64,000 nt of DNA. Origin: Clostridia bacterium. Lineage in GTDB: Bacteria > Bacillota > Clostridia > Christensenellales > SZUA-584. Under the pieces are notes generated by a model. The model saw only the letters and a program-made list of their open reading frames with translations, was not told the origin of the DNA and did no database searches. The stretch spans positions 1-64,000 of the forward strand of contig JABGQS010000007.1 of the NCBI GenBank assembly GCA_018648645.1, in the 5' to 3' direction. Of this stretch, positions 3 to 53,383 are shown piece by piece (the first letter of the stretch is position 1; every line of letters begins with the position of its first letter). A program made the translations under genes and the position numbers.

Positions 3-800
3 ATAGAGCAGTATCACGATGCGGGACGGTTTTCTATGCGGCAGGTTGCGCTTGCGCCGTGCTCGCCCTTTAGCGTGACGGACGATTTGATGAAGCAGAG
101 CGCAGCACTGGCGCGGCAGTATGGTGTGCGGCTGCATACGCATTTGGCAGAGACCAAAGACGAGGAAAACTATATGATAGAAAAGTACGGCAAACGTCCT
201 CTTGAAGTTATGCAGGATCTAGGCTGGGTCGGCGAAGACGTTTGGTTTGCGCACGGGATATACTTCAATGACGAGGAGCTTGACCTTTTGGCGAAGACGA
301 AAACAGGCGTTGCACATTGCCCGATTTCTAACATGAAGCTGGCGTCGGGTATCGCAAAAGTACCGCAGATGATTGAGAAAGGTGTGCCTGTTGGGCTGGC
401 GGTTGACGGAAGCGCAAGCAACGACGGGAGCAGTATGCTGGAGGAGATACGTGTTGCGTTTTTACTGCACAGACTGAACTCAAGCAACGATGCGCCGAGC
501 GGATACGACATATTGAAGCTGGCGACGAGAGGCAGCGCGAGAGTGCTCGGCAGAGACGATATTGGTCAGCTGAGCGTCGGGTATGCGGCCGATGCGTTTA
601 TGGTAGACACGGACAGAATTGAGCTGGTCGGCACACAGTTTAACGCGAAATCCATGCTGGGCACGGTAGGTCTGAAAGGCAGCGTAGATACAACGATTGT
701 TGGCGGGGAAATTGTTGTGGACGAAGGCGAATTGGTGAACGTTGACGAGAAGAAAGTTGTGGCGGATGCAACGCAGGTGCTGAAAAAGTACTACCAATAG
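3..800 (+). CDS. 8-oxoguanine deaminase-type amidohydrolase (5' end outside window)
   Basis: C-terminal part of a metal-dependent amidohydrolase (TIM-barrel, AtzA/TrzN/8-oxoguanine deaminase branch) that hydrolytically deaminates a purine-like ring in the cytosol. The frame is open to the window edge, so the first ~180 residues, including the first His-x-His, are missing; ATG 36 is internal. Visible are HTHLAE (metal/substrate His and the catalytic Glu), AHGIYF (metal His), and VDGSASNDGSS, whose Asp is the last metal ligand. The NMKLASGIAKVP and GSASNDGSS signatures are those of 8-oxoguanine deaminases/hydroxyatrazine hydrolases rather than of SAH deaminase or guanine deaminase. The exact substrate is inferred, not shown. 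No partner gene is visible. Confidence 0.82.
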   Translation: MEQYHDAGRFSMRQVALAPCSPFSVTDDLMKQSAALARQYGVRLHTHLAETKDEENYMIEKYGKRPLEVMQDLGWVGEDVWFAHGIYFNDEELDLLAKTKTGVAHCPISNMKLASGIAKVPQMIEKGVPVGLAVDGSASNDGSSMLEEIRVAFLLHRLNSSNDAPSGYDILKLATRGSARVLGRDDIGQLSVGYAADAFMVDTDRIELVGTQFNAKSMLGTVGLKGSVDTTIVGGEIVVDEGELVNVDEKKVVADATQVLKKYYQ

Positions 801-822
801 CAGTATATTTACTATGATTTAC

Positions 823-854
823 AAAGGCTTTGCGGCATATTAGCGCGGGCCTTT
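823..854 (+). terminator. possible weak terminator after the amidohydrolase
   Basis: AAAGGC (823-828) and GCCTTT (849-854) can pair around a GC-rich loop, but only a short broken T run follows. It separates two same-strand genes with unrelated functions. Confidence 0.35.
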
Positions 855-914
855 TGCCTTGCTTGTACTGTATGTAATTTTATGTTTTGCCTTGGTAAAC
901 AATCAATTATTGAG

Positions 915-943
915 TTGTATTTAAACATCAGACGTGATAAAAT
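915..943 (+). promoter_or_regulatory. sigma-A promoter for the CotH gene
   Basis: TTGTAT (915-920), a 17-bp spacer and TAAAAT (938-943). It lies downstream of the ATG at 882, which argues that the CotH protein starts later, near 975-987. Confidence 0.45.
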
Positions 944-986
944 ATCAAGAACGCAAATCATTATTGCAGGGGGAGTGTGGAGCTTT

Positions 987-3944
987 TTGCGAAGGCTTAG
1001 AAACATCATTATCGCCATAGTTATTGCCGGGTTGTTTGCCGGCATATTAGTTATTGCGCTTAGAGCACAGAACGAGGAAGAAGCTGTGAGCACAGACTTT
1101 GTTATGATCAGCGAGTTTATGGCGTCTAACAAAAGCACTATCACCGACGAGAACGGCAATTTCAGTGACTGGATAGAGATTTATAATCCAACGGACAGCG
1201 CTGTCAACCTGTTTAGCTATGGGCTTTCTGACGACAGCGGTAAAGTGAAGTGGACGTTCCCGAATATTACGCTCGGACCCGGAGAATATATCGTTGTTTT
1301 TGCTACGAATGCGACCACTGTCGATAAAAACGCAGTGTATCAGCATATCGGGTTTAAGCTTGCCGCAGACAAAGGCGGTATATATCTGATAAACGACACA
1401 GGGCAGCCTGTGGACGAGATAGAGTATGAGAACCAAATAACAGGGGTGTCGCTTGGACGCAACGAGTTATATGAATGGGTAGCTCAGCAAGCGCCTTCGC
1501 CCGGGTTTAGCAACGATGCTGCGGGGGTTGCTGCGTTTTTGGACAGCAGAAAAACTGACGAGGAATTTTTAATTATTACTGAAGTGATGTCGCAGAACCG
1601 AACGACTATAGCGGACTCTGCTGGCGATTTTCATGATTATATTGAAATTTATAACACCGGCAGCGAGCCAGTTAGCTTGCTTGGATATTCGATGTCCGAC
1701 GACCCAAACAACATAGGAAAGTGGCAGTTCCCCGATGTGACGATTGGCGCGGGGGAGTATTTACTTGTGTTTGCGTCGGGGTATGAGACTAGCTTGCCGG
1801 GCGACGATTTGTATGCGAGTTTTAGGATCTCTTCGCTGGAAGAAACGATTATAATTTCAAATAAAATGGGGCTTGTTGTGGACAGCGTTGTGCTCCGAGA
1901 AGTCGGTACTGACCGTTCGTATGCACGCGTAACAGACGAAGACGGCAGCTATGGCGATGAGTGGCAGGAGACGGACAGCCCGACGCCGCGATTGCCGAAC
2001 ACCGGCGAAGGGTTTGTGACGTATATGCAGACCAATGTTGTAACGACCGGGCAGATTATCATCAACGAAATTATGGTGAGCAACAGCACCGTTTTGCAGG
2101 AAGGCGATGGCGAGTATTATGACTGGATAGAGCTGTATAACCGAAGTGACGCTGCGGTGAGCCTCGCGGGATACAGCCTAAGCGACGACCAAAACAATCC
2201 GTCGAAGTGGAAATTTGAAGATATAACGATTGGTGCGGGTGAGTATATTGTCGTGATTGCGTCGGGAGAACCGGTGGACGGCGAGGACGAAAAAAAAAAT
2301 TATCTGCACACCAACTTTAGACTGAGCGCATCGGGCGAAGTTTTGGCGCTATATGACAGCAGCGGGGCTTTGCAAGACAGGTATATGATAACTTTTACAC
2401 CAAAGGGTGTTTCAGTAGGTAGAGTGGATGAGCGAAACGAGCTTTACTTTTTCAGCGTACCAACACCAAAGACCGCTAACGTAAACGCGTTTGCCGGCGT
2501 GCTTGAACCGCCGAGCGTGGACATTAGAGCCGGGAGCTATGACAGCGGAGTTGAAGTCTCGCTTATAAGCAGCGCCTCTGACGCAAGTATATACTATACG
2601 CTTGACGGCAGTGAGCCGAGTGAAAACGATATGCTGTACACGCAGCCGATAAGCATGTCGGCAACAGGGATGATTCGGGCGAGGGCGTATTTGGACGGAT
2701 ATATAAATAGCGAAATCAGTACCAACTCGTACTTTGTGGGCGAGACGCACAGCCTACCGATTTTGTCGGTTGTCACAGAGAACGATTATCTATTTGACGA
2801 GACAAACGGAATATATATGCTGGGACCAAACGCTGTGGAGATTGCGGGCAGCCCCGGGCACTACAAGAACGCGAACTATTCAGCCAGCGGGAAAGAGGCG
2901 GAGAGACCTGCATCGTTTGAGGTGTTTGACGAGAACGGCAATCAGGTGTTTGCGCAAAACATTGGTATACGGATTCAAGGCGGCTACAGCAGGGATAAGG
3001 CGCAAAAGTCGTTTGCTATTTTTGCAAGGAGCGAATACGGTCCCGGAGTGATGGATTATGCTTTCTTTGACAACAGACCATTTGAGCAGTATCAAGCGAT
3101 TCAATTGCGCCAAGGCGGGCAGGATCAGAACATCGCCAAGATAAAGGAAGCAACGCTGCTTGCACTGGTCGAAGGGCAGGGGTATAACTTCATTGTCCAG
3201 GCGGTAAAGCCGTATGTGCTGTATATAAACGGAGAGTACTGGGGCGTATATTATATGCAGGAAAAGCGCAACGAGGAGTTTATCGCGCAGCATGAGGGCG
3301 TTGTTGACGCCGACAACATGAATATAATGAAGGCTTCTACGATTGTATTGCAGGGCAGCAATACCGAGTATAAAGAGCTGATTAAATTTGTAGACAGTAA
3401 CGATATGTCCAGCAAAGAGAACTTTGATTATATTGCGCAGTATATTGATACAGACAGCTTTATGGATTTAATGATACATCAGATTTGGATAGCGAACTCT
3501 GATTACGCAAATTTGCAGTATTATCAGATATTGCCGGACGGGAAATGGAAGCAGATTTATTACGATTTCTGCTGGACTTTCCAGTCGGGGCATGAGACTT
3601 TAAAGTATCGGATGGATATGAGAAAGGCGGGAAGCTCGCTGTTAAACGGGCTGCTTGAATACAAGCCGTGGCGCGATGAGTTTATTGAACGGTTTGCGCA
3701 GGTGATGAGGGAGACGTATAGCACCGAAAGAGTGCTTACTGAAATTGAGAATCAGGTAGATTTGATAAAGGACGAGATGGTAGCTGAGCGTGCGAAGTTT
3801 GGCGGAACGGTAAGCAACTGGGAAACGAATGTTGAGCGAATGAGGGAGTTTGCCAGAGTGCGAAACTCGCAAATTGTCCAGCAATTAAAGGATACGTTCC
3901 CGCTGTCGGCAGAGCAAACGGCAATGCTGGAGGACGCGATTTAA
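987..3944 (+). CDS. CotH kinase family protein with three lamin-tail domains, membrane-anchored
   Basis: About 985 residues, extracellular. One N-terminal membrane segment (IIIAIVIAGLFAGILVIAL) is followed by three lamin-tail (LTD) beta domains at about residues 38-160, 193-320 and 355-490 (each with DWIEIYN/DYIEIYN and S(M/L)SDD motifs), a chitobiase-type C-terminal domain near 506-580 (IYYTLDGSEPS), and a CotH kinase domain from about 588 to 960 (RIQGGYSRDKAQKSF, GVYYMQEKRNEEF, YYDFCWTF). CotH proteins are atypical protein kinases first known from spore coats, but many occur at the surface of non-sporulating cells. Start chosen at TTG 987, preceded by GGGGAG; GTG 975 is possible, while ATG 882 has no ribosome-binding site and lies before the promoter. 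VTC and DUF4956 genes follow, a grouping recurrent in Firmicutes. Confidence 0.85.
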   Translation: MRRLRNIIIAIVIAGLFAGILVIALRAQNEEEAVSTDFVMISEFMASNKSTITDENGNFSDWIEIYNPTDSAVNLFSYGLSDDSGKVKWTFPNITLGPGEYIVVFATNATTVDKNAVYQHIGFKLAADKGGIYLINDTGQPVDEIEYENQITGVSLGRNELYEWVAQQAPSPGFSNDAAGVAAFLDSRKTDEEFLIITEVMSQNRTTIADSAGDFHDYIEIYNTGSEPVSLLGYSMSDDPNNIGKWQFPDVTIGAGEYLLVFASGYETSLPGDDLYASFRISSLEETIIISNKMGLVVDSVVLREVGTDRSYARVTDEDGSYGDEWQETDSPTPRLPNTGEGFVTYMQTNVVTTGQIIINEIMVSNSTVLQEGDGEYYDWIELYNRSDAAVSLAGYSLSDDQNNPSKWKFEDITIGAGEYIVVIASGEPVDGEDEKKNYLHTNFRLSASGEVLALYDSSGALQDRYMITFTPKGVSVGRVDERNELYFFSVPTPKTANVNAFAGVLEPPSVDIRAGSYDSGVEVSLISSASDASIYYTLDGSEPSENDMLYTQPISMSATGMIRARAYLDGYINSEISTNSYFVGETHSLPILSVVTENDYLFDETNGIYMLGPNAVEIAGSPGHYKNANYSASGKEAERPASFEVFDENGNQVFAQNIGIRIQGGYSRDKAQKSFAIFARSEYGPGVMDYAFFDNRPFEQYQAIQLRQGGQDQNIAKIKEATLLALVEGQGYNFIVQAVKPYVLYINGEYWGVYYMQEKRNEEFIAQHEGVVDADNMNIMKASTIVLQGSNTEYKELIKFVDSNDMSSKENFDYIAQYIDTDSFMDLMIHQIWIANSDYANLQYYQILPDGKWKQIYYDFCWTFQSGHETLKYRMDMRKAGSSLLNGLLEYKPWRDEFIERFAQVMRETYSTERVLTEIENQVDLIKDEMVAERAKFGGTVSNWETNVERMREFARVRNSQIVQQLKDTFPLSAEQTAMLEDAI

Positions 3945-4043
3945 TAGCAGGACAACGCCGCGATGGTTGGGCTGCAAGACAACGGATGTAACGGCAGTGT
4001 GCAAGCGCAAACTGTTGAGAAGTATGAAAAACCATATTATGGC

Positions 4044-4072
4044 TTGACAGAAGAGGGAACAAACGCTATATT
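4044..4072 (+). promoter_or_regulatory. sigma-A promoter for the VTC/DUF4956 pair
   Basis: TTGACA (4044-4049), 17-bp spacer, TATATT (4067-4072), 64 bp before the ATG. Near-consensus, so the pair can be transcribed independently of the CotH gene. Confidence 0.65.
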
Positions 4073-4135
4073 TTATAAGTTAGGACGACCACATACCGGC
4101 GGAGGAAATAATTCGCACGGGTAGTAGGGGAATGT

Positions 4136-5497
4136 ATGCCAAGAAGAGATGACGATATATTTAAAAAACTGAAAAATGAGAAGCCTTTGGCAAAGTCTGC
4201 GGGAGAGCGTAAAGGCGCGGAGTCAGCCGACGGCAAGAATACTTTTGAGCTGATGGTCGAGAAGAAAACAGCCAAGAGGAAGAAGCCTGTAGGAACCAGA
4301 GGCGTTTATCATACGCCGAAAAAGCGCGGCGGAAGAAAGGTTGTTGTTAGCAAAAGCAAAGCAGCGCAGAAAAAGGAAATTGAAATATTCTCGGAGAAAT
4401 CACCCGGCAGCCAAATGGCGAAAGACGCTAAACATGATATTTTAGATGAGCGTGATAAGAAAGCAGCGCAGGCAAAGCAAGAGGTGACGAAAACGCAGGC
4501 TGCTAAGCCGGTACGTAAGGACGAGAGCGCGGCGCAGACGAGGAAACCGGTCGGCGAATCAAGCAGTGATTTGATTTTTGATACGCCGGAGATACAAGAG
4601 CACCAAGAGAGAAAACCACAGCAAAGTAAGCCGGCTTCGCCAAGCAGAGCACCTTCGCCAAGCAGGGCGCCTGAGCCAAGAGTGGAGCAGGAAATATCTA
4701 AACCGGAACCTAGGCAGCGAACTCCGATTGCAGCCAAACCTCAGCCGACCAGACCTGTTGCGAAAAAAACTGCGGCTATTAAGACAGACGCGCAAATTGT
4801 GAGGGCAAAGACGAGGAAGGTCTTTAGGCACGAGTTGAAGTATTACATAAACTACAAAGATTATTACTTGTTGAGAGCGTCAATTGGCGCTATAATGACG
4901 CTGGATGAGAACGCGAATGAGAATAGGTCGTACCACATTCGAAGTCTGTATTTTGACGATATTTATGAGCGCGCGCTTGCCGAAAAGGTAGCGGGTAACG
5001 ATAACCGGTGCAAGTATCGGATTCGTATATACGATTATAAAGACGACATGATTAAGCTGGAGAGAAAGCAGAAGCACGGGCAGTTCATACGAAAGACCAG
5101 CATGCAGCTGACCAGAGATGAGTACGAAAGCTTGATTGCCGGAGATTACGACTTTTTGCTTGCGCGTAAGAGCAACCTTGCCAAAGAAATGTATATTAAG
5201 TTGAAATCTGAGTTGCTGCGCCCTCGAGTGATTGTGGATTATACGCGTGAGGCGTATGTGTATCCGATTGAGGATGTGCGCGTAACGTTTGATATAGACC
5301 TGAAAGGCAGCACGATGATGTCAGATATATTCGACGAAAGTATACCATGTATGGCGGTGTATGAGCACGGCATGATGGTGCTTGAGGTCAAGTTTAACAA
5401 GTATTTACCCGAGAGTATAAAATGTGCTTTAAGCAGCGCTAAGGCGATGCAGCGAAGTGCGATTTCAAAATATGTTTTATGCAGAAAATTTGATTAG
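4136..5497 (+). CDS. VTC-domain (polyphosphate polymerase-like) protein with long basic N-terminus
   Basis: 453 residues. The C-terminal half (about 228-453) is a VTC domain, the triphosphate-tunnel fold that polymerises polyphosphate in yeast Vtc4: RHELKYYIN, RSLYFDD, YRIRIY, KLERKQK and VMVLEVKF-like strands (here MMVLEVKF) supply the conserved basic and acidic tunnel residues. The first ~225 residues are low-complexity, rich in Lys, Ala, Pro, Ser and Gln with a SPSRAP repeat, and look disordered; the usual bacterial homologue lacks this extension. Twelve bases separate it from the DUF4956 gene, so the two are co-transcribed. The family link is strong; actual polyphosphate synthesis by bacterial VTC proteins of this cluster is inference. 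Confidence 0.82.
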   Translation: MPRRDDDIFKKLKNEKPLAKSAGERKGAESADGKNTFELMVEKKTAKRKKPVGTRGVYHTPKKRGGRKVVVSKSKAAQKKEIEIFSEKSPGSQMAKDAKHDILDERDKKAAQAKQEVTKTQAAKPVRKDESAAQTRKPVGESSSDLIFDTPEIQEHQERKPQQSKPASPSRAPSPSRAPEPRVEQEISKPEPRQRTPIAAKPQPTRPVAKKTAAIKTDAQIVRAKTRKVFRHELKYYINYKDYYLLRASIGAIMTLDENANENRSYHIRSLYFDDIYERALAEKVAGNDNRCKYRIRIYDYKDDMIKLERKQKHGQFIRKTSMQLTRDEYESLIAGDYDFLLARKSNLAKEMYIKLKSELLRPRVIVDYTREAYVYPIEDVRVTFDIDLKGSTMMSDIFDESIPCMAVYEHGMMVLEVKFNKYLPESIKCALSSAKAMQRSAISKYVLCRKFD

Positions 5498-5508
5498 GAG
5501 GAAATATT

Positions 5509-6186
5509 GTGGGAGCAACAGATTTTTTCAAAGGCAAGTTTCTTGAAGATTTTAGTTTAATAGGGACGCTGAACGTATGGGATGTGGTGATAACGCTGAC
5601 AATCGCGTTTGTTATGGGCATGTTCGTATATTTCATCTACCGAATTACATTTGGGGGCGTGGTGTTTGTCAAGAGTTTTGGCACATCGCTCGTGATGCTT
5701 TCGATGGTGACATCGATGATTATCTTGCCGATTTCAACGAATTTGCTATTGTCGCTGGGTATGGTCGGTGCGTTGTCCATCGTGCGCTTTAGAACGGCGG
5801 TAAAGGAGCCAACCGACACCATTTATATGTTTTGGGCGATTGCACTCGGCATAACGCTAGGCGCAAAGCTGTATTACGCAGCGGTCATCGCTTCTTTGTT
5901 GATTGGGCTTTTCCTGGTGATTTGGAACCTCGTGCGAACGAAGAAAAACCTGCCGTACATTCTGGTTATTCGATTTGAAGAGCATAGTAAAAAGCAGGTG
6001 CAGGAAGTTTTACGCAGGATGCCGCAAGGCAAGCTGAAGTCTAAGATTGTAACCTCCGGTATGATTGAGCTTACAATTGAGATGACGATCAAGAAGGGCG
6101 ATATCGGTACCGTAGACGCGTTCGGCGCGATAGACGGTGTGCACGATGCGTCTTTGATAAGCTATAAAGGCGACGTAGTTTCGTAA
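5509..6186 (+). CDS. DUF4956 integral membrane protein
   Basis: 225 residues. GTG start with AGGAGG eight bases upstream. About four transmembrane helices fill residues 20-145, including the conserved SLGMVGALSIVRFRTAVKEP loop typical of DUF4956, and a soluble C-terminal ferredoxin-like segment follows (about 150-225). Function is unknown. The family is repeatedly found beside VTC-domain and CotH proteins, as here, suggesting a membrane component that works with the VTC enzyme or the surface CotH kinase. Translation is probably coupled to the upstream VTC gene. Confidence 0.82.
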   Translation: MGATDFFKGKFLEDFSLIGTLNVWDVVITLTIAFVMGMFVYFIYRITFGGVVFVKSFGTSLVMLSMVTSMIILPISTNLLLSLGMVGALSIVRFRTAVKEPTDTIYMFWAIALGITLGAKLYYAAVIASLLIGLFLVIWNLVRTKKNLPYILVIRFEEHSKKQVQEVLRRMPQGKLKSKIVTSGMIELTIEMTIKKGDIGTVDAFGAIDGVHDASLISYKGDVVS

Positions 6187-6250
6187 ACGAGGGGTCTGAA
6201 AACATCGGGCGTTTATAGAAAATCGTTTACAATCAGCGGTCTTTTAAATG

Positions 6251-6289
6251 ATAGCAGGCTTTCTGGATTTCTGAAGGTCTGCTATTTTT
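6251..6289 (+). terminator. intrinsic terminator after DUF4956 gene
   Basis: ATAGCAG (6251-6257) pairs with CTGCTAT (6279-6285), followed by a T run. It closes the CotH/VTC/DUF4956 cluster. Confidence 0.7.
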
Positions 6290-6307
6290 GTGTCTGATGG
6301 CAAAGCT

Positions 6308-6336
6308 TTGCTTATCCAATTAAGATATGATAGAAT
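6308..6336 (+). promoter_or_regulatory. sigma-A promoter for VanX-like peptidase
   Basis: TTGCTT (6308-6313), 17-bp spacer, TAGAAT (6331-6336). The predicted transcript starts near 6343, downstream of the longer in-frame start at 6290, so ATG 6404 is the better start. Confidence 0.55.
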
Positions 6337-6403
6337 ATTGGAAGTGATTGGGGATGTTCTCCCTTGTATATCAATGGCTTTGTCCAAGGAAACGGAATTG
6401 ATT

Positions 6404-27651: not shown

Positions 27652-29148
27652 TTATTTTCTGAGCCGTTTCTCGCCTTCCAGTTCCGTTATGTTTTTGATA
27701 TCCTGCGTTACTTCGAGCGTGCCTAAATACTCGCCCTTTTTGTTGCGAACAGCGAAATATCGTATGTAGGCAAACACTTCGCCCATCTTAATCCAGAAAT
27801 CCTCATTGTCTTTTTTGCCCGATCGCAAATCTGCTACAATCTGCTCGACAATCTGAACACTCTTTGGCGGATGGCAAAGCCTTACCTGCCTGCCGATGAT
27901 GGTGGGCGGGCGGTCGAAAACGCGCTCTTTGCCCTGCGTGAAGTATCGCACTTTGTCGTCTGCACCAACGAACGTCATGTCCAGCGGTACAGTGTTCAAT
28001 ATCGCGTTAACTTCCTCGGACGTCAGCGATCCCGCGTCAAACTTGATTTGTGTTTGGCTGTCGACCTTCACAACGTCTGGGGGAGCATTGACAGGTGGAG
28101 TAGCTTTGGCGGGCGGAACAGCTTTGGCGGGCGTATCTGCAGAGACTCGGGACGATCTGCGCTTGTGTTCAACCTCCGGCTCATCGTCTACATCCGGCTC
28201 ATCGTCTACATCCGGCTCATCGTCTATCTCCGGCTCGTCATCTACCTCCGGTTCATCATCTACTTCCGGCTCATCGTCTACCTCCGGCTCATCGCCTACA
28301 TCCGGCTCATCATCTGCCTTCGGCTCATCGTCTACCTCCGGTTCATCGTCTACCTCCGGTTCATCGTCTACCTCCGGCTGCCAACGTTTGGGAGGGTCTA
28401 TCAGAGTAAAGCCAATTTCTGCGCTGGACGCTTCGATTTGCACCCAATCTTCATGTGAAAACTTATCGAGAATCATCGGTATCATGATTTCTTCTTCTTT
28501 GAAAATCATCTCGGTAACTTGCTCGGTCATCTCGTTTACAGGACCCTCGATTTGAAACGGTGCTACCGGCGGGCCTTCGAGTCGCTCGATTACAGCTTTT
28601 ATCTTGTCTCTAATCTCGTCATCAACACCCCACATTACCTGCGGCGGCGCAGTGATATCGTACTTCTCCATAATCGGGAAGATTAGATTTTCCTTGCGAG
28701 AATAATGTTTACTGATTGTCAGCAATTCCTTAATTGCTTCAAGCAAAGCTTCTTTGTTTTTTTCTGAACCGTTAGCAATATAGTTTTTCAATTTGGCTGA
28801 AACTTGGTTGTTTAGCCAAGCCTGTATTGCGATGTTCTCTGCCTTAATTGTGAGAACGGGATGTCCTGCACTCATTTTATTAGGGGCAGCATCTTCTTTA
28901 TGTATGTCTTCGATAGAGCCTTTGAAAACGGCAGCGTGAACATCACAAAGTCGCTGGATGTCGGTAATTGGCATGCCTTCGTTAACAAGCGCTTGTTCCA
29001 TCTCGGCAATTTCTGTCGCGGTAACGCCGGTGGTCAGCTTGTTAAACTCCTCCTGAACGTCCTCTACAGTTGCGCCGTCATGCAGCCGTTTGATCAGCTC
29101 CTTTAATTTATCTTGCCGAAACTGTTTGTTCTGAATTAATTCACTCAT
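27652..29148 (-). CDS. DUF438 / hemerythrin-like / PAS protein with acidic repeat linker
   Basis: 498 residues. An N-terminal DUF438 domain (about 1-95: LKELIKRLHDGATVEDVQEEF, MPITDIQRLCDVHAAVF), a hemerythrin-like helical bundle (about 95-255, HYSRKENLIFPIMEKYD and EEEIMIPMILDKFSHEDW carrying His/Glu candidates for a di-iron site), an acidic hexapeptide repeat (about 258-325), a Pro/Ala linker, and a C-terminal PAS domain (about 365-498, NTVPLDMTFVGADDKVRYFTQG). Usual DUF438 proteins are about 400-420 residues, so the repeat is the additional part. Likely an oxygen, NO or redox sensor; the output is unknown. SD AAGGAGAC. It is co-oriented with the DUF1858 gene 11 bp upstream, a typical pair. 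Confidence 0.85.
   Translation of the reverse strand: MSELIQNKQFRQDKLKELIKRLHDGATVEDVQEEFNKLTTGVTATEIAEMEQALVNEGMPITDIQRLCDVHAAVFKGSIEDIHKEDAAPNKMSAGHPVLTIKAENIAIQAWLNNQVSAKLKNYIANGSEKNKEALLEAIKELLTISKHYSRKENLIFPIMEKYDITAPPQVMWGVDDEIRDKIKAVIERLEGPPVAPFQIEGPVNEMTEQVTEMIFKEEEIMIPMILDKFSHEDWVQIEASSAEIGFTLIDPPKRWQPEVDDEPEVDDEPEVDDEPKADDEPDVGDEPEVDDEPEVDDEPEVDDEPEIDDEPDVDDEPDVDDEPEVEHKRRSSRVSADTPAKAVPPAKATPPVNAPPDVVKVDSQTQIKFDAGSLTSEEVNAILNTVPLDMTFVGADDKVRYFTQGKERVFDRPPTIIGRQVRLCHPPKSVQIVEQIVADLRSGKKDNEDFWIKMGEVFAYIRYFAVRNKKGEYLGTLEVTQDIKNITELEGEKRLRK
28177..28374 (-). repeat. 18-bp tandem repeat tract encoding about 11 acidic hexapeptides
   Basis: About eleven in-frame 18-bp units encode EVDDEP and variants (DVDDEP, EIDDEP, KADDEP, DVGDEP). 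The units differ by single bases. The tract joins the hemerythrin-like and PAS parts of the DUF438 protein. Confidence 0.9.
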
Positions 29149-36609: not shown

Positions 36610-36638
36610 TTGAAATTATCGCGTAAATATTGTATAAT
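36610..36638 (+). promoter_or_regulatory. sigma-A promoter of the OLE-like RNA
   Basis: TTGAAA (36610-36615), 17-bp spacer, TATAAT (36633-36638). Transcription would start at about 36645, just before the 5' strand of the closing stem. The stretch 36405-36609 before it is AT-rich and holds no other feature I can see. Confidence 0.8.
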
Positions 36639-36644
36639 GTAAAA

Positions 36645-37262
36645 AAAGGTGGTGCAGTATTCTAGTCGGTACTGCGATTTTGAAAGCGGGCTTAAAAATC
36701 CGCAAACGGGCACATCGATGAAGTTTCTTGTGTTGGCCTAGGGCGCCCAGCCCGGGGCTGATGCTGGGAGTTAAGGTCGTGGGGCGATCCGCAAAGGCAT
36801 GCGGGCGTTTGACCCCGCTTCCGTGGAGACCCAAGCAGGTGGCAGAAAGGTTTGTTACTACTTGGGATTAAACCTGTGGTGCGGCGCAAGCTGTGGACAG
36901 AGTAGCCTGCCTTGAGTTATACGGGGTGTATTGTAGAACACGCCCGGGCGCACAAAGTACACGTGCACTCGGCAGCGATTGCTTCAAAAAACCCGTGTGG
37001 CAAAAGAGGCTAAAAATCGTTTGATGCTGTAGAGGAAAACTCCTAGACTGTATGAGTGTAATGCGTTAATATAAGCGCTGACACCAAGATATTTTGGAGA
37101 TTATAGTGTGGTCTAAACGGCAATCCAGTCATGCGAACGGTAACGTCGCGTTTTAGAGTTTAATGGGAAACCGCTTCATCGGTGACGGGGAGTATCTCTA
37201 AAGGGAAATCCTACTGGACCTAAGCTGCAAGGTTTATCCAAGGTATCACCACCGTTTTTTTT
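36645..37262 (+). ncRNA. ole: OLE RNA (ornate, large, extremophilic), about 610 nt
   Basis: A GC-rich stretch without a real reading frame, bounded by its own promoter and a terminator. GGTGGTG (36648-36654) pairs perfectly with CACCACC (37247-37253), closing the molecule, and eight Ts follow, so the RNA ends near 37262. Length about 610 nt is that of OLE RNA. The next genes are a small multi-pass membrane protein (OapA-like), tlyA, nadK, argR, recN and spo0A, the OLE neighbourhood known from Bacillus halodurans and anaerobic Clostridia. OLE RNA binds OapA at the membrane and its loss makes cells sensitive to ethanol, cold and magnesium. The call rests on size, ends and context; I could not align the consensus. 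tmRNA, RNase P and 6S are excluded by sequence or size. Confidence 0.82.
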
Positions 37263-37299
37263 ATTTTATTAAAAGGGAAGGCTCGTTAAAGAGCAAATT

Positions 37300-37869
37300 A
37301 TGGCAAAAAAGAAAAAGGGCGTCAAGTTTTGGGCGCTAAAGATATTTATTATTACGCTGATTCTCACAGCAGGAGTAAGCGTTATTTCAGAGTCGCTGAT
37401 GGGCAGGCTGCCCACCATTGCGGCTGCTTTTATTATATTGTTTATTATACTCATCGGTGTCACCTTTGACATGATTGGAATTGCGGTAGCAACGTGCGAA
37501 GTTTCGCCATTTGTTGCGATGGCGTCAAGAAGGATACGAAAAGCAAAAAGTGCAATAAAGCTGCTGAAAAACGCGGATGTAGTGTCGAATATATGCAGCG
37601 ATGTTGTCGGTGACATATGCGGTATCGTCAGCGGCGCGACAGGTGTTGCCGTTGCGGTAAAGGTTGCTATGGCGGGTGACACGCGCGAAATCATTTGGGT
37701 AATAGTAATATCGAGCGTGATTGCAGCACTGACTGTTGCGGGCAAAGCGATAGGAAAAACGATTGCTATTAGTAAGAACAAGCAGATTGTCAGCTTTGTA
37801 TCGTCAGTTATTACGGTGTTTATGCGTGATGACAAAAGCAGCACATCCAACGGCAAAAAGCAGGATTAA
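37300..37869 (+). CDS. oapA: OLE-associated membrane protein OapA
   Basis: 189 residues. Basic N-terminus (MAKKKKGVKFW), then four membrane helices: about 11-30, 36-60, 108-130 and 135-155, with a cytosolic basic segment between helices 2 and 3 (ASRRIRKAKSAIKLLKNAD) suited to RNA contact, and a Lys-rich tail. Size and topology match OapA, the protein that forms a 2:1 complex with OLE RNA and brings it to the membrane; the core is distantly DUF21/CNNM-like, a family linked to magnesium. Position 38 bp after the RNA terminator is the diagnostic context. The ribosome-binding site is weak (AAAGAG), so read-through from the RNA promoter may regulate it. Confidence 0.8.
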   Translation: MAKKKKGVKFWALKIFIITLILTAGVSVISESLMGRLPTIAAAFIILFIILIGVTFDMIGIAVATCEVSPFVAMASRRIRKAKSAIKLLKNADVVSNICSDVVGDICGIVSGATGVAVAVKVAMAGDTREIIWVIVISSVIAALTVAGKAIGKTIAISKNKQIVSFVSSVITVFMRDDKSSTSNGKKQD

Positions 37870-48983: not shown

Positions 48984-50675
48984 GTGAGTAAAGCGGCAGA
49001 AAAAAAGGCGGCAAAAAAGAAGACTGCAGCAGCGAAAGCATCGTTGAAAGAGAAGACTGCAGCGACAAAAGCGTCGGCGAAAAAGAGAACAACAAAAAAA
49101 ATAGAAGCAGCTATTGTTGTATCTGAAAAAGCAGCAAAAAAGAAGTCAATAACGAAAGATGCTGCGCAAGAAAAGAAAGCTGTAAAAACGGTGAAAACCG
49201 CTAAGAAGCCAGCGGCGGCAGTAGGGTCCGTGACTGTGAAAAAAGCAGCAGCGGTAAGCAAGCCGGTAGCAGCAAAGAAAGCGGTTGCAACCAAGAAACC
49301 TGCTGCTAAAAAAACGGCAGCGACTAGCAAACCAGCTGCAAAAAAAGCGACAGCAGCAAGTAAGCCTGCAGCAAAGAAGACAGCAGCAAAGAAAACTGCA
49401 ACTGAGAGCAAGACTGTTGCGGAAAAGAAGCCTGCGACAGCAAAGAAGACGGGTGATGCAGCTCAGCCGGCAAAAGGGGCAAAAAAGAAAGCGCCCGCAA
49501 AGAAAGTACCAGCCAAAGCAAAAGGCAAGGCGGTAAATACCAAAAAAGCTGACAAAATGACGTTGTCCGAAGAGAACCTTTTAAAGATACAAACGCTCGG
49601 AATGTTTATGAAGTCGGAAAAAGAAGACAAGATTGCAGAAATTATCGACAAGGGCAGAAAAAAGGGCGCGTTGACCTACAAGGAAATCAACGATGCGCTT
49701 GAAGGTGCCGAGATTGAGTCGGAGCATTTGGACAAGCTTTTAGCAGCGCTTGAGGAAATGAAAATTGAAGTGCTGGACGACGTTGAGAAGAACGGCGACG
49801 CGCAGGATGTGGACAAAGCGGTTGAGATTGCAGTACCCGAGGGAATCAACATTGACGACCCTGTGCGCATGTATCTCAAAGAAATCGGCAAAGTCAATCT
49901 GCTTACGGCAGAGGAAGAAGTAACGCTTGCCAAAGCGATGGCGGCAGGGGACGACAGCGCAAAACGCAAGCTAGCCGAAGCGAACCTGCGTCTTGTTGTC
50001 AGCATTGCAAAGCGATATGTCGGCAGAGGCATGTTGTTCCTCGACTTGATACAAGAAGGAAATTTAGGACTGATTAAAGCTGTTGAGAAGTTTGATTATA
50101 CCAAAGGCTACAAGTTCAGCACATATGCGACATGGTGGATTCGCCAAGCGATTACGCGCGCCATTGCCGACCAGGCACGGACGATTCGTATCCCGGTGCA
50201 CATGGTCGAGACTATCAACAAGCTGATTCGCGTCAGCAGGCAGCTGTTGCAGCAATTCGGCAGAGATCCGTTGCCTGACGAAGTTGCAAAAGAGATGGAC
50301 ATCAGCGAGGAGAAGGTTCGCGAGATTATCAAAATTGCACAAGAACCTGTGTCGCTTGAAACGCCGATTGGTGAAGAGGAAGACAGCCACCTTGGCGACT
50401 TTATACCGGACGAGGATGCACCGGCACCGGCAGAAGCGGCCGCGTTTACATTGCTGAAAGAGCAGTTGATGGACGTGCTTGATACGCTGACACCGCGTGA
50501 GGAAAAGGTGCTTAGATTGCGCTTTGGTCTCGACGACGGCAGGGCGCGTACGCTTGAGGAAGTTGGCAGAGAGTTCTTGGTAACGAGAGAGCGCATAAGG
50601 CAAATTGAAGCAAAGGCGCTGCGTAAACTGCGACATCCGAGCCGAAGCAAGAAGCTGCGAGACTTTTTGGACTAG
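48984..50675 (+). CDS. rpoD: housekeeping sigma factor RpoD with Lys/Ala-rich N-terminal extension
   Basis: 563 residues against about 360-380 in typical Firmicutes. Residues 1-190 are almost entirely Lys, Ala, Thr, Ser, Pro and Val with loose repeats such as SKPAAKKA and KKTAAKK, resembling histone H1 tails. The rest is normal: sigma 1.1 (about 193-265), 1.2 ([11 protein letters not shown]), region 2 ([47 protein letters not shown]), region 3, and region 4.2 ([20 protein letters not shown]). GTG start with GGTGAT nearby; the extension is in frame without interruption and could be confirmed only by protein data. An internal ATG at 49557 (KADKM) could give a normal-length protein. Confidence 0.95.
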
Positions 50676-52962: not shown

Positions 52963-52974
52963 ACAAACAGTTTT

Positions 52975-53363
52975 GAGCAAGCTGAACGGTCGCCAGGCAC
53001 TAGTTTAGATCATGACTATATATCATATTACCCAATGTTGGGGATTTAAACTAGTGCCTGGAGGAAAGTCCGAGCTCCGCAGGGCAAGGGCGCCGGGTAA
53101 CTCCCGGTGGAGGCGACTCTAAGGAAAGTGCAACAGAAATATACCGCCCGGGGCGTGAGCCTTTGGTAAGGATGAAAAGGTGAGGTAAGAGCTCACCGGC
53201 GCTTTGGCAACTGAGCGCGCTATGTAAACCCCGTCCGGTGCAAGATTGATAGTGGGCGCAAACGACTGCCCGTCGTGCCCCGTGTAATCGCTGGAGCCAG
53301 CAGGCGACTGTTGGCGTAGATAGATGACCGTTTTCGACAGAACTCGGCTTACAGGCTTGTCTC
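52975..53363 (+). ncRNA. rnpB: RNase P RNA, bacterial type A
   Basis: About 389 nt. P1 is formed by GAGCAAGC (about 52975-52982) with GCTTGTCTC (53355-53363). The universal core is clear: GGAGGAAAGTCCGAGCTC, ACAGAAATATACCGCC, GTAAGAGCTCACC, and at the 3' end GACAGAACTCGGCTTACAG. P3 is an unusually long, AT-rich hairpin (GGCACTAGTTTA/TAAACTAGTGCC). Catalytic RNA that trims tRNA 5' ends. The minus-strand open frame in this stretch is not a gene. Confidence 0.97.
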
Positions 53364-53383
53364 AAAACATTTAAATTTAAAGG

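Follow-up and report, generated by a model that had tools for sequence, protein, structure and literature searches.

A strictly paired VTC-domain protein and DUF4956 membrane protein with an exchangeable surface partner: a candidate polyphosphate module in a Clostridia bacterium

Results

Three genes near the start of the contig

The DNA analyzed here comprises the first 64,000 nucleotides (forward strand) of contig JABGQS010000007.1 in assembly GCA_018648645.1, from a Clostridia bacterium of the Christensenellales lineage SZUA-584. We refer to this whole stretch as the window. Its position 1 is the contig start, so that any sequence further upstream falls outside the contig; the genome as a whole is 95% complete. 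Three genes lie in one row, all on the + strand, between positions 987 and 6186:

987-3944, + strand: surface protein with LTD, CHB_HEX and CotH domains, 985 amino acids, TTG start (Pfam: three LTD matches, CHB_HEX_C_1, CotH)
4136-5497, + strand: VTC-domain protein resembling polyphosphate polymerases, 453 amino acids (PF09359; best Foldseek match 3g3r)
5509-6186, + strand: DUF4956 protein, an MgtC-like membrane protein with an ACT-like C-terminal domain, 225 amino acids (PF16316; hhalign; structure model and fold search)

The initial annotation, made from the sequence alone, had placed a lamin-tail (LTD) CotH protein, a VTC-domain protein and DUF4956 at these positions and on this strand; Pfam matches to LTD and CotH, to PF09359 and to PF16316 bear this out. 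The VTC and DUF4956 genes are separated by 11 bases and the end of the CotH gene lies 191 bases from the VTC gene.

A VTC gene accompanies every DUF4956 gene

The distribution of the three families was analyzed in two main collections. The less biased one consists of 249 genomes drawn from the window's phylum. The other consists of 81 loci, namely the window and 80 loci fetched from named genomes; the window's DUF4956 protein had at least 587 matches, of which these 80 are the closest, and the tallies made on them cover its subtype. A control set of 14 named genomes was checked for presence of the families. A second DUF4956 match in the window's own genome, on contig C23, turned out to be an MgtC protein and was left out of the pair counts.

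VTC was found in 35 of the 249 genomes and DUF4956 in the identical 35, with 42 copies of each (Fisher p 1.7e-43); DUF4956 was never found without VTC. In 41 of the 42 copies the two genes lie no more than 2.5 kb apart on one strand, the gap between the matches measuring 117-353 bases in 40 of them. Genome G140 has CotH between VTC and DUF4956, and in the 42nd copy (G066) the two are separated by contig ends. All 81 loci have VTC near DUF4956 on the same strand. VTC is upstream in 80 of these (in locus L128 as a fragment at the contig start) and follows the surface-protein gene in the remaining one, L121. Both families also occur together in three control genomes, those of Bacteroides ihuae, Corynebacterium glutamicum and Methanosarcina acetivorans. 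Thus, the conserved neighborhood proposed in the initial annotation is confirmed, with one amendment: the invariant unit is the pair formed by VTC and DUF4956, and the third gene is exchangeable, CotH being replaceable by Cthe_2159 (see below). The strictness of the pairing assigns DUF4956 a clear partner.

The idea that VTC generally substitutes for the polyphosphate kinase PPK1 was rejected: PPK1 is present in 11 of the 35 VTC genomes compared with 25 of the 214 others. PPK1 was not found in the window's own genome.

A response regulator and a histidine kinase adjoin many VTC-DUF4956 pairs, often in divergent orientation (L185-L189, L192, L193), and possibly regulate the pair.

The surface partner is exchanged and, in the sister clade, its anchor is kept

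CotH is present in 29 of the 35 VTC genomes (4 of the 214 others) and Cthe_2159, which Pfam names as a carbohydrate-binding family, in 20 (5 of the 214 others). Every VTC genome has at least one of the two families, compared with 9 of the 214 remaining genomes, three of these nine being below the family cut-off (G180, G084, G113; p 1.2e-34). At the level of the individual pair, 26 of the 42 have CotH within 2.5 kb. Fourteen of the 16 CotH-less pairs were read (G066 and G244:C83 being outside this group): the next gene encodes Cthe_2159 (PF14262) in ten, and a lamin-tail protein without a CotH domain lies beside three. The ten Cthe_2159 neighbors comprise nine lipoprotein-like proteins, associated with a second DUF4956 type (type B, with RFRS-x-P), and the one of G250. 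In G207, a type-B pair, CotH adjoins the pair and Cthe_2159 lies beyond. Of the three control genomes holding VTC, two contain CotH and the third Cthe_2159, as judged by presence in the genome.

Among the 81 loci, 73 carry CotH (64) or Cthe_2159 (9) beside the pair. CotH is downstream in 46 loci, upstream and fused to LTD in 12 (the window included), and upstream in another form in six. Partner variants with LTD or with LTD and leucine-rich repeat (LRR) domains also occur beside the pair. These labels, assigned with home-made profiles, were borne out by Pfam for CotH (46/46 and 12/12), Cthe_2159 (9/9) and VTC (38/38).

The evidence on how these partners are attached comes from the sister clade, which accounts for 60 loci of the set, the window's clade making up 21 rows. 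In the sister clade, CotH and Cthe_2159 proteins encoded after DUF4956 begin alike for approximately 34 residues (MSTHKxIDKIC...LFMNGEALGI). A profile built from CotH N-termini alone (43 of the 46 proteins) retrieved nine Cthe_2159 proteins at E values of 1.7e-7 or less among 8225 other reading frames, the next match having an E value of 0.12. A tenth Cthe_2159 frame (L101), unmatched by the profile, is a fragment without N-terminus. Median identity between CotH and Cthe_2159 anchors was 41% over 288 pairs, the same as within each group, against 15% for shuffled anchors; these values refer to 44 proteins fitting a short start pattern (36 of 46 CotH, 8 of 10 Cthe_2159), which favors likeness at four positions. 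Identity falls to 20% over the 100 residues that follow the anchor. In the 249 genomes, five anchor matches reached an E value of 1e-5 or less; all lie beside DUF4956 and one is on a Cthe_2159 protein. Weaker matches, starting with a sixth at 7.5e-5 (G146:C15:6169, a 44-residue frame), were not counted as clear; one of them, in G193:C37 (E 0.0035), likewise lies beside DUF4956.

In a tree of VTC plus DUF4956 obtained by a short search, the CotH/Cthe_2159 state switches six times; if only well-supported branches are considered, the Cthe_2159 label must still change at least four times. Two Paenibacillus CotH proteins (L123, L136) have lipoprotein-like N-termini in place of the anchor. That the anchor is retained under unrelated outer domains points to a contact within the membrane, and the common anchor turns this contact into a concrete prediction. 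Cthe_2159 was absent from the six papers in the searched collection that combine polyphosphate with the VTC domain.

Conserved tunnel residues and a basic tail in the VTC protein

Two parts can be distinguished in the 453-residue VTC protein:

4136-4822, + strand: basic N-terminal tail, predicted disordered (composition; predicted local distance difference test, pLDDT; similar tails in L014, L015 and L017)
4823-5482, + strand: VTC catalytic tunnel domain (profile, model and fold comparisons)

The PF09359 match (E 2.1e-37; 129 bits against a cut-off of 23) covers residues 230-449 only. When the structure model was compared with known folds in Foldseek, VTC chains took ranks 1 to 13 and other triphosphate tunnel enzymes came after them; the best was 3g3r, a eukaryotic polyphosphate polymerase (E 8.5e-14). 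A profile of the domain matched 3g3q (E 5.7e-7). Searching the Protein Data Bank with the single VTC or CotH sequence returned nothing useful, the matches coming from profile searches. Across 38 sequences of the window's subtype, residues K235, R295, R297, K311, R371, R382, E417 and K445 do not vary. The positions aligned, via 3g3q and 5iiq, with R264, R266 and E426 of yeast Vtc4 all belong to this invariant set, the counterpart of E426 being placed by the common LEVK motif in a weak local alignment. We take Vtc4 K200, K281, R361, R373 and K458 to be further tunnel residues, the counterpart of the last being placed by motif only. Changing R264, R266 and E426 together reportedly leaves the yeast VTC complex inactive or impaired (PMC9911596). 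The VTC protein of the window probably makes polyphosphate, with ATP as the presumed substrate.

The initial annotation had described an additional basic domain of 225 residues. The extra sequence is real (230 residues, isoelectric point 10.2, 57 K+R compared with 31 D+E), and is better described as a tail: pLDDT per block is approximately 37-64, whereas most of the VTC part scores approximately 92-98, so that the extension is predicted to be disordered with no folded domain. Basic tails occur on the VTC proteins of three further genomes of the same family (L014, L015, L017), resembling one another mainly in an opening similar to RRDDEIFKKLKxEKPL. No such tail is present on the second VTC copies of two genomes of that family (L013, L018). 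Elsewhere in the window, a protein that we read as a Sigma-70-like factor (48984-50675) carries a long Lys/Ala-rich basic N-terminal extension resembling the VTC tail. A basic tail may therefore be typical of this lineage.

Kinship of DUF4956 to MgtC and its ACT-like domain

Two elements of the DUF4956 protein bear on its possible role:

5785-5805, + strand: RFRTAVK motif (R93, R95, K99) between helices 3 and 4, on the predicted cytosolic side
5944-6174, + strand: ACT-like domain, residues 146-222 (VIA-align)

The protein matches PF16316 with an E value of 5.6e-10 (39.7 bits; gathering cut-off 30.6). Its score against the Pfam MgtC family (PF02308), 17.2 bits, is below the cut-off of 31.4; hhalign joined it to the MgtC protein of the window's own genome at 94.5% (A1, 12 sequences) and 88.7% (A4, 47 sequences). 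The structure model shows a short N-terminal helix, then five long helices, then a C-terminal domain for which VIA-align gave Z scores of 11.9 (2nzc) and 11.0 (3ibw). MgtC C-terminal domains followed, with 9.4 for 2lqj (82 residues) and 9.2 for 7qa5 (79 residues). DUF4956 is thus a relative of MgtC with an ACT-like C-terminal domain; the four-helix membrane protein of the initial annotation was roughly right about the membrane part and missed the ACT-like domain. The protein differs from the MgtC/SapB family in falling under the MgtC cut-off, in having a motif of its own (G-M-V-G-A-L-S-I-V-R-F-R), and in having VTC as its partner in all sampled genomes where it occurs. SIR_1592 of Streptococcus intermedius is reported to have the identical MgtC-type plus ACT architecture (Raju 2025, PMC12345266). 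DUF4956 also appears in expression tables of two further papers, in passages that do not mention VTC (PMC6848847, PMC10434189).

R93, R95 and K99 are kept without exception across 47 sequences of the window's subtype. Should the ACT domain be cytosolic, the stretch between helices 3 and 4 that carries these residues would be exposed to the cytosol as well. By analogy with the yeast VTC complex, whose polyphosphate entrance is described as lined by basic residues (PMC9911596), this side may be the entry point for a polyanion.

The LTD-CotH protein of the window

The CotH gene starts with a TTG codon at position 987, preceded by GGGGGAG, and stops at 3944; an in-frame ATG is found at 882. Pfam recognized LTD in three stretches (E 1.8e-50), CHB_HEX_C_1 (2.6e-16) and CotH (1e-33) in the 985-residue product. 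The relevant elements are:

993-1073, + strand: N-terminal membrane anchor, residues 3-29 (sole hydrophobic segment by hydropathy)
2967-3869, + strand: CotH kinase domain (PF08757)
3501-3503, + strand: Asp839, presumed counterpart of Bacillus subtilis CotH Asp228 (aligned via 5jd9; invariant in 12 proteins)
3564-3566, + strand: Asp860, presumed counterpart of B. subtilis CotH Asp251 (aligned via 5jd9; invariant in 12 proteins)

Eleven LTD-CotH proteins encoded upstream of VTC in other loci share 30-37% identity with this protein, and D839, N842, D860 and E759 are invariant across the 12. A group profile of the CotH domain matches 5jd9, the CotH protein of Bacillus cereus (E 1.2e-25). The B. 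subtilis numbering was mapped via the 23-residue spacing in 5jd9, and the correspondence is thus presumptive. Changing D228 or D251 is reported to inactivate B. subtilis CotH (PMC7821199). The initial annotation had called the protein a pseudokinase type; retention of the two catalytic aspartates speaks otherwise, and the kinase is possibly active. It resembles the spore-coat kinases of B. subtilis and B. cereus in its domain match and catalytic aspartates, and differs from them in being predicted to be membrane-anchored, with lamin-tail domains, rather than part of the spore coat.

Four further LTD-CotH proteins are encoded in the window's own genome (L010, L011, L012; contigs C48, C24 and C9), two of them in tandem on C48. 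None adjoins VTC, of which the genome has a single copy.

Relation to Pel loci

The three genes have been treated as accessory genes of the Pel exopolysaccharide locus, with deletion phenotypes, in two reports (Whitfield 2020, PMC7112168; Raju 2025, PMC12345266). The claim of the initial annotation that their joint function is undescribed is therefore correct only in part. The set resembles SIR_1592-1594 and the cotH-PPP-DUF4956 set of Whitfield in having a secreted CotH, a polyphosphate polymerase and an MgtC-type protein with ACT domain in one row. It differs in that the window's genome has no detectable PelG, its CotH is upstream with three lamin-tail and CHB_HEX domains, and its VTC protein bears the basic tail. 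A further relative, the NELoc-2 locus of Clostridium perfringens, is reported to combine CotH with two polyphosphate-polymerase genes (PMC11677781).

PelG exceeded the cut-off in 2 of the 35 VTC genomes and 5 of the 214 others (p 0.26; a match in G044 was below the cut-off and was left out). It lies near the pair in G109 and on a separate contig in G140; none was found in the window's own, 95% complete genome, where the three genes thus do not adjoin a pelDEADAFG locus. In 52 of the 80 fetched loci the sequence reaches at least 8 kb beyond VTC on the upstream side, and five of these contain PelG, in all five with CotH between PelG and VTC. Six loci have a non-LTD CotH directly upstream of VTC: PelG is present in five, and none was found in L116. 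With the three genes mostly occurring without PelG, and with PelG at five loci, we conclude that they form a free-standing module that was taken in by some Pel loci and is there tightly joined to the exporter. Occurrence outside Pel loci is contrary to a published statement that the set is not found there, the passage in question giving no search scope (Raju 2025, PMC12345266).

In three Paenibacillus loci (L099, L113, L125), PelG and CotH share one stop-free reading frame of 1035-1093 codons, with a lipoprotein-like signal stretch after the PelG part in L099 and L113. This frame is either an exporter fusion or a pair of overlapping in-frame genes.

Surroundings of the three genes and other features of the window

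An amidohydrolase gene lies upstream of the three genes and a gene for an M15 D-Ala-D-Ala peptidase downstream. The genes 3' of DUF4956 differ from the window's in three loci of the same family (L198-L200). One additional element lies between the CotH and VTC genes:

4044-4072, + strand: promoter-like site TTGACA-17-TATATT (11 of 12 consensus matches)

This is the best of 11 promoter-like sites scanned in the interval 700-6400, shuffled sequences averaging 8.4 sites at the same threshold; by itself the site is no evidence of function. Together with the 191-base gap, it suggests that the VTC-DUF4956 pair could be transcribed alone, separately from the CotH gene.

Further along, the window contains an OLE RNA (RF01071, 456.6 bits) at 36633-37268, directly followed by a gene for a small membrane protein (37300-37869), presumably OapA. 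An 18-base tandem repeat of 11.6 copies (28172-28379) encodes an acidic DDEPEV repeat within the protein encoded at 27652-29148. A class A RNase P RNA is found at 52974-53368.

Discussion

We postulate that the three genes specify a polyphosphate synthase bound to the membrane and working with an exchangeable surface partner, a reading to which we give an even chance of being right. It draws on homology, fold, kept active-site residues, the strict pairing and, in the sister clade, exchange of the partner over a retained anchor; production of the polymer, the physical complex, export and the role of the surface partner are what we infer from them. A function in a surface polymer or phosphate, as suggested in the initial annotation, is the likeliest reading for the three genes. 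The VTC domain, located in the cytosol, would take phosphate from ATP and polymerize it through its tunnel. DUF4956 would be the obligatory membrane partner, docking and regulating the polymerase and, less certainly, passing the polyphosphate chain outward; it would do what the transmembrane domains do in the yeast VTC complex, in which synthesis of polyphosphate is described as coupled to its translocation (PMC9911596). The surface protein, LTD-CotH here and CotH or Cthe_2159 elsewhere, would be tethered at the same membrane site and receive the product or work with it.

Several observations weigh against this proposal. The strongest is that, in the S. intermedius study, deletion of the DUF4956 gene SIR_1592 or of the CotH gene SIR_1594 altered aggregation or Pel, whereas no change in either was reported for deletion of the VTC homologue SIR_1593 (Raju 2025, PMC12345266). 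If the proteins formed a strict complex, their deletions should have similar effects, at least in that assay, and the result counts against the proposed reading; it concerns one species and one assay. Separate phenotypes, named in the initial annotation as a ground for refuting a joint function, are thus partly on record; the other ground named there, a lack of conserved co-occurrence in other genomes, is contradicted by the pairing in the genomes sampled. Furthermore, the VTC protein shares with the eukaryotic complex (Vtc1/Vtc3/Vtc4) the fold and residues of the catalytic tunnel, and differs from it in having neither an SPX domain nor a fused transmembrane segment (Pfam above cut-off; hydropathy), its membrane partner being MgtC-like. 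We know of no MgtC or DUF4956 protein demonstrated to be a channel. Confidence in the DUF4956 model is mixed (mean pLDDT 76; predicted template modeling score 0.60), the listed structural matches of this model span residues 146-222 only, and K99 of the basic motif is absent in type-B members. Only five of the 42 sampled pairs carry the shared anchor in clear form, and it was not found in the window's own genome, hence not in its LTD-CotH protein. Partners are missing at some loci: one of the 14 CotH-less pairs read (G027) has neither Cthe_2159 nor a lamin-tail protein alongside, and neither CotH nor Cthe_2159 was seen at 8 of the 81 loci. At six of these eight, the available sequence ends within 2 kb on one side; L143 and L168 lack both families despite at least 9 kb on either side.

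An alternative that we consider unlikely, though deserving of attention, is that the module is regulatory. DUF4956, like MgtC of Salmonella, would tune phosphate uptake or ATP synthase, VTC would make or degrade a cytosolic phosphate store sensed by the ACT domain or the neighboring two-component system, and the surface proteins would be co-controlled parts of the matrix. The MgtC kinship and ACT-like domain of DUF4956 fit this scheme, as do the S. intermedius phenotypes and the signaling genes: response-regulator and histidine-kinase labels, assigned with home-made profiles anywhere in the locus, occur in 32 and 30 of the 81 loci, and such genes stand beside 6 of the 9 type-B pairs without CotH. 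The scheme leaves unexplained why DUF4956 never occurs without VTC in the 249 genomes and why unrelated surface proteins have a common anchor. More doubtful still is an adhesion locus in which CotH, Cthe_2159 and LTD adhesins are merely co-regulated, VTC and DUF4956 supplying phosphate during biofilm growth without forming a complex. The Pfam name of Cthe_2159 and the LTD and LTD-LRR partners agree with it; loose co-regulation does not predict that the five clear anchor matches all lie beside VTC-DUF4956. Finally, service to Pel, for instance by phosphorylating Pel-associated proteins (Whitfield 2020; Raju 2025), is improbable, and as a general rule already contradicted: published gene order and mutants, PelG upstream of CotH-VTC-DUF4956 in 5 of the 80 loci and the single PelG-CotH frame of Paenibacillus favor it, set against the scarcity of PelG in VTC genomes and loci and its absence from the window's genome.

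Returning to the polyphosphate synthase, a bolder version can be put forward tentatively, and we hold it to be rather unlikely as a whole. The VTC-DUF4956 pair would be an independently built prokaryotic counterpart of the eukaryotic VTC complex, extruding polyphosphate through an MgtC-type protein to the cell surface, with the partner recruited by the anchor handling the polymer: CotH would take it as phosphate donor outside the cell, where ATP is scarce, and Cthe_2159 would hold the polyanion, perhaps via calcium. If true, a surface-polyphosphate system would be common to Bacillota, Actinomycetota, Bacteroidota and archaea. This bears on how bacteria might bring polyphosphate to the outer side of the membrane and on what serves as phosphate donor for secreted kinases where there is no ATP, and the pairing of VTC with DUF4956 makes both questions testable by single-gene deletions.

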